Notes under the pieces: model-generated
The model's database searches: none
What the model was told of the DNA's origin: nothing
Seen by the model: only the letters and a program-made list of their open reading frames with translations
Shown here: piece after piece, positions 44,228 to 44,737 of the stretch
How the letters are laid out: the number at the start of each line of letters is the position of its first letter
Position numbering within the stretch: position 1 is the first letter of the stretch
From: Chitinophagaceae bacterium PMP191F
GTDB taxonomy: Bacteria > Bacteroidota > Bacteroidia > Chitinophagales > Chitinophagaceae
NCBI GenBank assembly: GCA_001302245.1
Contig: LGYU01000008.1
Location: 124,001 to 188,000, forward strand
Reading direction: 5' to 3'
Length of the DNA stretch: 64,000 nucleotides
Translations under genes and position numbers: made by a program

Positions 44228-44384
44228 GAGAAATGACAGCAACATTATGCTCGTTTTGAACACGGTGGTTTGATCAAGTTTCTTCTAATATTTCCTGATT
44301 TCTTCAAAATTTGGAGATATTAGGAGGTAAGTTGCATGTTGGGAATAGAAGAAAATGATTTGCAGTACCTGGTAATAACAAAAA

Positions 44385-44410
44385 AGCCTCCCGGTAAATA
44401 CCGGAAGGCT
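44385..44410 (-). terminator. Terminator of the tRNA-like RNA
   Basis: On the minus strand, a stem of GCCT/AGGC plus CCGGT/ACCGG with one mismatch and a 4-nt loop is followed by six T (to 44380). It begins 5 bp after the acceptor-like 3' end. Confidence 0.9.
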
Positions 44411-44415
44411 GTTGC

Positions 44416-44581
44416 TGTAGAGGGAGGACTCGAACCTCCACGAGGCAGTTAGCTATAGCGCAATCTGTGGTGGTCAACCCCAGTCATTCCGGTTGCCCGG
44501 AACGGCATTACACTACGTTTATCCTGTGATCCCCACCCCCGAGACAAGGGGGCATGTCTGCCAAGATTCCATCACTCCACA
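44416..44581 (-). ncRNA. tRNA(Leu)-like RNA interrupted by a 96-nt insert
   Basis: Read on the minus strand, 5' TGTGGAG (44581-44575) pairs over seven positions with 3' CTCTACA (44422-44416), with one G-U pair. A Leu-type D-arm follows (ATG/CAT stem, GGAATCTTGGCAGA loop). The place of the anticodon arm is taken by CCCCC/GGGGG with loop TTGTCTC, which lacks a purine at position 37 and so is not a normal anticodon loop. About 96 nt (44535-44440) follow, holding a TTCCGG/CCGGAA hairpin with a GCAA tetraloop. A perfect T-arm (GGAGG/CCTCC, loop TTCGAGT) then joins the acceptor. GGCAG in the D region could also pair with CTGCC before the T-arm. The length is 166 nt; normal tRNA(Leu) is about 85. 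Not tmRNA: no tag frame and too short. Confidence 0.7.
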
Positions 44582-44737
44582 GTGTGTAAAACCAAACGTG
44601 TTTAAGAGCTATTGACAGCACAATATTAAAGAATATTGACAATTTATTGGAAATAATTCAATGAAAATTTTGAAAAATTCGATATTATTCAAATATTTGC
44701 TTTTTCTATTTGATGTTTACAAAAAACAGCAGTCAAA

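Follow-up and report, generated by a model that had tools for sequence, protein, structure and literature searches.

The window, that is, the whole 64,000-nucleotide stretch of DNA analysed here, encodes a tRNA-like RNA with all the structural parts of a class II tRNA and a giant variable arm. It belongs to a previously undescribed RNA family, found widely among Bacteroidia and their phages, that is absent from Rfam and overlooked by ARAGORN. We consider it probable that this RNA is a dedicated, non-decoding aminoacyl carrier for asparagine biosynthesis, which we propose as a new variant of the tRNA-dependent route to this amino acid.

Fold and conservation of the RNA

Read from 5' to 3', the RNA consists of C(-1), UGUGGAG, UG, the D arm, the anticodon arm, the variable arm, the T arm, CUCUACA, G73 and C74 (Table 1). 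Its cloverleaf is that of a decoding tRNA, with a 7-bp acceptor stem, a T arm, a D arm and a 5-bp anticodon stem. An earlier, sequence-only reading of this DNA had seen no normal anticodon in it; in fact the anticodon arm, CCCCC-UUGUCUC-GGGGG, is regular, with a 5-bp stem and a 7-nt loop that holds the aspartate anticodon GUC at positions 34-36. The insert of about 96 nt described in that reading does exist (about 94 nt), but is by nature an enlarged variable arm that starts directly after the anticodon arm, and the GGCAG/CTGCC helix thought to close it gives way to conserved helices elsewhere, at 44534-44531/44445-44442 and 44526-44524/44448-44446. Folding of the minus strand beats 200 of 200 shuffles (z -3.94); an RNA read from the plus strand was rejected on its poor fold (z -1.43, not better than every shuffle).

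Table 1. Coordinates of the RNA, its parts, its transcription signals and the divergent gene
Feature	Position	Strand	Remarks
tRNA-like RNA	44415..44581	-	167 nt; U1 at 44581, G73 at 44415, C74 at 44414; covarying homologues, covariance model score 103 bits
Acceptor stem, 5' strand UGUGGAG (positions 1-7)	44575..44581	-	U1 is a GatCAB determinant; pairs beyond 1-72 covary
Acceptor stem, 3' strand CUCUACA (positions 66-72)	44416..44422	-	followed by G73, C74
D arm, 3-bp stem AUG/CAU, class II loop with GGCAGA	44554..44572	-	covariation; like host tRNA-Leu(uag)
Anticodon arm, loop UUGUCUC	44536..44552	-	loop 44547-44541, GUC 44545-44543, C38 44541; loop consensus NNGUCUC
Giant variable arm	44440..44534	-	GGGG/CCUC, CAG/CUG, internal loop GAUAAA/CUAA, outer helix, hairpins; inner stems both covary
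Internal-loop strand GAUAAA	44518..44523	-	conserved, consensus NAYAAA
Internal-loop strand CUAA	44449..44452	-	conserved, 179/184 cores
T arm GGAGG UUCGAGU CCUCC	44423..44439	-	conserved, covarying alignment
Intrinsic terminator	44380..44410	-	hairpin 44410-44385, T run 44385-44380; strong, directly 3' of the RNA
boxA-like leader element GCUCUUAAAC	44600..44609	-	GYTCTT enriched in relatives' leaders
-7-like promoter element TAATATTG	44621..44628	-	resembles TAnnTTTG, the -7 motif of Bacteroidota
AsnC-like Lrp-family regulator, 156 aa	44738..45208	+	divergent from the RNA; nearest solved relative E. coli AsnC

A blastn search recovered homologues in 31 of 61 related genomes, and a pattern search did so in 32 of the 295 genomes examined from the class, against 0 for a reversed-pattern control; the named genomes include Chitinophaga, Niabella, Dyadobacter, Spirosoma, Cyclobacterium, Algoriphagus, Fulvivirga, Marivirga and Saprospiraceae, among others. 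Altogether, 209 copies were parsed to one common anatomy, and the 184 with distinct cores are the basis of the counts out of 184. A covariance model scores members of the class at 65-116 bits and ordinary tRNA-Leu-like sequences at no more than 62 bits, the latter being the only matches in other classes of the phylum. The model also recovered members missed by the pattern, in which GUC and C38 are kept and position 37 varies.

The pairing is strongly supported by covariation. Across 30 diverse aligned sequences, 99% of the pair cells are paired and 18 of 28 pairs are altered on both sides; none of 500 shuffles matches any of five measures, and slid partners pair at 49-59%. The D stem occurs as AUG/CAU, ACG/CGU and UUG/CAA, the 4-bp stem of the variable arm as GGGG/CCCC, GAAG/CUUC, GGAG/CUCC, GGUG/CACC and AGGG/CCCU, and the 3-bp stem as CAG/CUG, CGG/CCG, GCC/GGC, AGA/UCU and CAC/GUG. 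Both variable-arm stems surround the internal loop NAYAAA/CUAA, beyond which the length of the arm varies between a few nucleotides and about 90. All 184 bacterial cores have G73-C74. The suggestion of an undescribed tRNA-derived RNA thus held in both checks run on it: conserved pairing in relatives, and a comparison with Rfam 15 that returned neither a family at the gathering threshold nor any match with a meaningful E-value. A literature search restricted to open-licence papers found no earlier description, and ARAGORN made no call on the RNA. A tmRNA and a group I intron, both discounted already in the sequence-only reading, were rejected, as was any known Rfam family: ARAGORN and Rfam are negative and, as regards a tmRNA, a reading frame is absent and an anticodon arm present.

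Aspartate-type identity elements and a non-canonical anticodon loop

The strong aspartate determinants are G73, G34, U35, C36 and C38 (PMC9976931), and the RNA has all five together with U1-A72. Within the loop, G34 is found in 182, U35 in 184, C36 in 184, U37 in 182 and C38 in 184 of the 184 cores, counts that are partly selected for positions 34-38 since the search patterns favoured GUCUC; the conservation of the acceptor stem is free of this effect. There, U1-A72 is present in 183 of 184 bacterial cores while pairs 3-7 change with compensation, and G2-C71 is invariant. The pair U1-A72 confers GatCAB amidation of Asp-tRNA-Asn, and G1-C72 of tRNA-Asp prevents amidation (PMC9976931; PMC4206432). 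ARAGORN-detected host tRNAs with U1-A72 are limited to tRNA-Asn and two tRNA-Gln. In the D loop, where U20a of tRNA-Asp acts as a GatCAB antideterminant, the RNA has extra positions, but not U. As a candidate substrate of AspRS, the RNA has G2-C71, one of the two end pairs of bacterial tRNA-Asp; its 1-72 pair is U-A, whereas bacterial AspRS normally meets G1-C72, and this speaks against the carrier reading.

The same positions qualify the description of the RNA as tRNA(Leu)-like in the sequence-only reading, which is right for the D arm only. A tRNA-Leu would have A73 and a leucine anticodon; here G73 (184/184), GUC and the other identity elements are of aspartate type, joined by U1-A72. In this regard, the RNA resembles tRNA-Leu in class II fold and D arm and tRNA-Asp in anticodon, C38 and G73, and differs from both in U37, in U1-A72 and in the great size of its variable arm, the inner loops of which are conserved.

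A tRNA that decodes carries U at position 33 and a purine at position 37. In the RNA, U33 is found in 145 of the 184 cores and C or G in the other 39, with U37 nearly throughout, and because U33 is not kept and position 37 is U rather than a purine, it is apparently unable to read codons. The host encodes a separate, normal tRNA-Asp with A37.

The RNA is also encoded on at least 120 viral contigs (L355-L474, IMG/VR), some of them longer than 200 kb. The AsnC-like gene is absent there, and the RNA often lies within tRNA arrays that include a tmRNA; a search of INPHARED phages gave no match. The shortest phage form measures 96 nt and is labelled tRNA-Asp by ARAGORN. U1-A72 is present in 75 of 78 unique phage copies, while pairs 3-7 drift with compensation, and several of these phages also encode a separate, normal tRNA-Asp.

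Transcription signals, AsnC-like neighbour and co-occurrence with GatCAB

The RNA is predicted to be expressed from its own transcription unit. The strong terminator noted in the sequence-only reading is confirmed, and a terminator-like site lies downstream of the RNA in 100 of 117 relatives (33 in shuffles); in the leaders of the same set, the -7 motif TAnnTTTG occurs in 72 (12.3 in shuffles) and the boxA-like GYTCTT in 53 (3.1 in shuffles). The host's own tRNA genes also encode C74 after N73, and the universal G73-C74 of the family, in keeping with this N73-C74, suggests ordinary 3' processing of the RNA.

That reading had also pointed to a divergent Lrp-type gene and to trmB as neighbours. 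The former is the conserved partner: in an all-against-all comparison of flanking genes, the sole widespread partner was an Lrp-type gene, divergent and immediately upstream, in 43 loci, and in the wider set it adjoins the RNA in 117 of the 159 loci that are not truncated by the end of a contig, with a median gap of 155 bp. In contrast, trmB is a true local neighbour, but stands beside the RNA in only 9 loci, all of the host's own family, and was rejected as a functional partner. Where the Lrp-type gene is missing, recurrent neighbours are merely lineage-specific genes. The best solved relative of the regulator is E. coli AsnC (2CG4, E=2.6e-34; next 1.3e-19), and AsnC is by far its best NCBIfam model at 165.6 bits, below the equivalog cut-off of 227 bits; by sequence, it is classed here as AsnC-like rather than as certified AsnC. 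E. coli AsnC activates asnA as long as asparagine is absent (PMC4482635). The AsnC-like gene is also missing in 7 of 8 RNA-free genomes of the host's family tested.

The identity elements of the RNA predicted the presence of GatCAB and mutual exclusion with asparagine synthetase. These two predictions were then examined in 80 genomes, 56 with and 24 without the RNA, GatCAB being scored by GatB. GatB is present in all 56 genomes with the RNA and in 7 of the 24 without it. All seven of the latter lack AsnRS and/or GlnRS, which accounts for their GatB since ordinary tRNAs then need GatCAB; likewise, six RNA-bearing genomes lack AsnRS and need GatCAB for tRNA-Asn anyway, which counts against the carrier reading. 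If only genomes that encode AsnRS as well as GlnRS are counted, in which no other function of GatCAB is known, GatB occurs in 46 of 46 with the RNA versus 0 of 13 without it, and within the host's family in 26 of 26 versus 0 of 10. Fisher p values for such comparisons (2.5e-13 and others) ignore relatedness and are not independent evidence. The AsnRS tree implies 6 changes in the RNA and 5 in GatB; the supported independent contrasts number 4, all concordant (sign test p = 0.125), and repeated pairings are nearly always concordant. In three genomes (G038, G050, G059), neither an AsnRS nor a GatB match was found.

As for asparagine synthetases, TIGR01536 proved too broad, with matches in all 80 genomes, and a classical AsnB protein was used as query instead. 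Classical AsnB is found in 0 of 56 genomes with the RNA versus 5 of 24 without it, and AsnA in 4 of 80, being absent from 54 of the 56. Seven RNA-bearing genomes (G016, 17, 19, 25, 36, 37 and 61) have AsnRS, lack AsnA and show TIGR01536 matches no better than about 1e-13. Genome G029, nested in an RNA-bearing clade, has AsnB and neither the RNA nor GatB, but keeps the AsnC-like gene; G099, beside the RNA-bearing G138, is likewise without RNA and GatB and with AsnB. Some observations speak against the carrier reading: AsnA occurs together with the RNA in G055 and G244, AsnB-like TIGR01536 paralogues of about 630 aa, which might make asparagine, are present in most RNA-bearing genomes, and the independent contrasts are few. 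Eight RNA-free genomes of the host's family (G001, G006, G012, G018, G021, G027, G031, G032) have AsnRS and lack GatB, AsnA and classical AsnB; with no recognised route to asparagine, they must have another route or uptake.

A proposed asparagine carrier and its alternatives

From these features we infer the following cycle. AspRS would load aspartate on the RNA, because the aspartate anticodon and discriminator are present, and GatCAB would amidate Asp-RNA to Asn-RNA, because U1-A72, which ordinary tRNA-Asp lacks, is present as well. Asparagine would then be freed by hydrolysis for use by AsnRS, and the RNA recharged. The altered anticodon loop, in which U33 is not kept and position 37 is U, would together with the giant variable arm bar the misacylated RNA from translation, and the divergent AsnC-like regulator would tune its transcription to asparagine supply.

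The proposed cycle shares with the tRNA-dependent asparagine biosynthesis of Deinococcus, Thermus and Bdellovibrio (AspRS, tRNA-Asn and GatCAB) the loading by AspRS, the U1-A72 determinant, the presence of GatCAB beside AsnRS and GlnRS and the frequent absence of AsnA and AsnB. It differs in that tRNA-Asn and a non-discriminating AspRS serve there, whereas here a dedicated GUC-bearing RNA with a non-canonical loop and a giant variable arm is linked to an AsnC-like regulator. The arrangement also recalls E. coli asnC-asnA, with an AsnC-like regulator beside a presumed asparagine-producing gene, divergent in Bacteroidia, except that the partner is an RNA gene instead of asparagine synthetase A. 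Like tmRNA, the molecule would be a tRNA-like, non-decoding, free-standing stable RNA, but it has a complete anticodon arm, different partners and no reading frame; like allo-tRNAs and tRNA-Sec, it would be a non-canonical class II tRNA with a specialised pathway, from which it differs by its 7/5 acceptor branch, giant variable arm, Asp/GatCAB identity and lack of any sign of recoding.

If the carrier reading is true, asparagine is synthesised on an RNA of its own that takes no part in translation, and tRNA-dependent biosynthesis is separated from decoding; RNA-based asparagine synthesis becomes possible without a relaxed AspRS, by way of a GUC-bearing RNA with U1-A72. It would also account for the retention of GatCAB by many Bacteroidia that have AsnRS and GlnRS, and for the way in which those without asparagine synthetase make asparagine. 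Independently of its function, the RNA family is new to Rfam and spans many genera and large phages. More tentatively, and with somewhat more doubt than confidence, we envisage a class of free-standing RNAs that are solely metabolic aminoacyl carriers, loaded by a synthetase, changed in their bound amino acid, unloaded and reloaded under the control of an amino-acid sensor, and borne by phages as well to boost host asparagine; the conserved loop NAYAAA/CUAA of the variable arm may itself favour the release of asparagine.

Alternatively, the RNA could be a regulator or decoy that binds, or is charged by, AspRS and/or GatCAB and tunes aspartate and asparagine metabolism under AsnC control, with no carrier turnover. 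The identity elements, the AsnC-like neighbour and the co-occurrence with GatB fit this too, and promoter and terminator are those of a free small RNA. We regard it as unlikely: an AspRS decoy has no need of U1-A72, and both the mutual exclusion with classical AsnB and the RNA-bearing genomes without a recognised asparagine synthetase fit biosynthesis better.

Ordinary tRNA-Asn might also be the carrier on which a non-discriminating AspRS and GatCAB produce asparagine, a route proposed for Bdellovibrio and some Bacteroidetes genera (PMC4206432), with the RNA as an accessory, for example a transamidosome scaffold. Host tRNA-Asn does carry U1-A72, and Bacteroidetes are among the genera with AsnRS, GlnRS and GatCAB and no asparagine synthetase (PMC4206432). 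Nevertheless, we give this account little credence, as the aspartate anticodon GUC would make a relaxed AspRS unnecessary and a scaffold would not demand strict G73, GUC, C38 and U1-A72.

It seems quite improbable that a lipid, a peptide or the cell wall, as a non-ribosomal acceptor, receives the amino acid of charged Asp-RNA or Asn-RNA in place of a release of free asparagine. Charged tRNAs elsewhere do act as such donors, and the non-decoding loop agrees with it; even so, no transferase gene is among the recurrent neighbours, and the mutual exclusion with AsnB points to free asparagine.

A role in translation could be hinted at by the phage copies in tRNA arrays, a counterpoint to the carrier reading. 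A decoding tRNA for aspartate codons with an unusually long variable arm would also agree with the anticodon GUC, with G73 and C74 as in real tRNA genes and with the ARAGORN label of the 96-nt phage form. We hold it to be very improbable in view of C or G at position 33 (39/184), U at 37 (182/184) and the separate, normal tRNA-Asp of the host and several phages, mostly with A37; in addition, it leaves U1-A72 and the GatB link unexplained. Finally, a pseudogene or mobile-element remnant of tRNA-Leu, suggested by the D arm, is refuted by the class-wide covariation and is next to inconceivable with promoter, terminator and neighbour conserved.

Several variants of the RNA deserve mention. Extra hairpins lie inside the D loop in L023, L028, L061 and L062, long and short variable-arm versions stand side by side in L025, L022 and L154, and G244 (L070/L243), a genome with AsnA and without GlnRS, has C34 in place of G34; in G117 (L249), of the same genus, only a degenerate copy of 78 nt was found. 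Tandem arrays of 3-5 copies occur in L180, L224, L055, L128, L162 and L179. The terminal loops of the variable arm are often self-complementary, as in GGUUGACC and GGUCGACC, or CGAGCUCG in Cyclobacteriaceae, and could form loop-loop dimers of the RNA.
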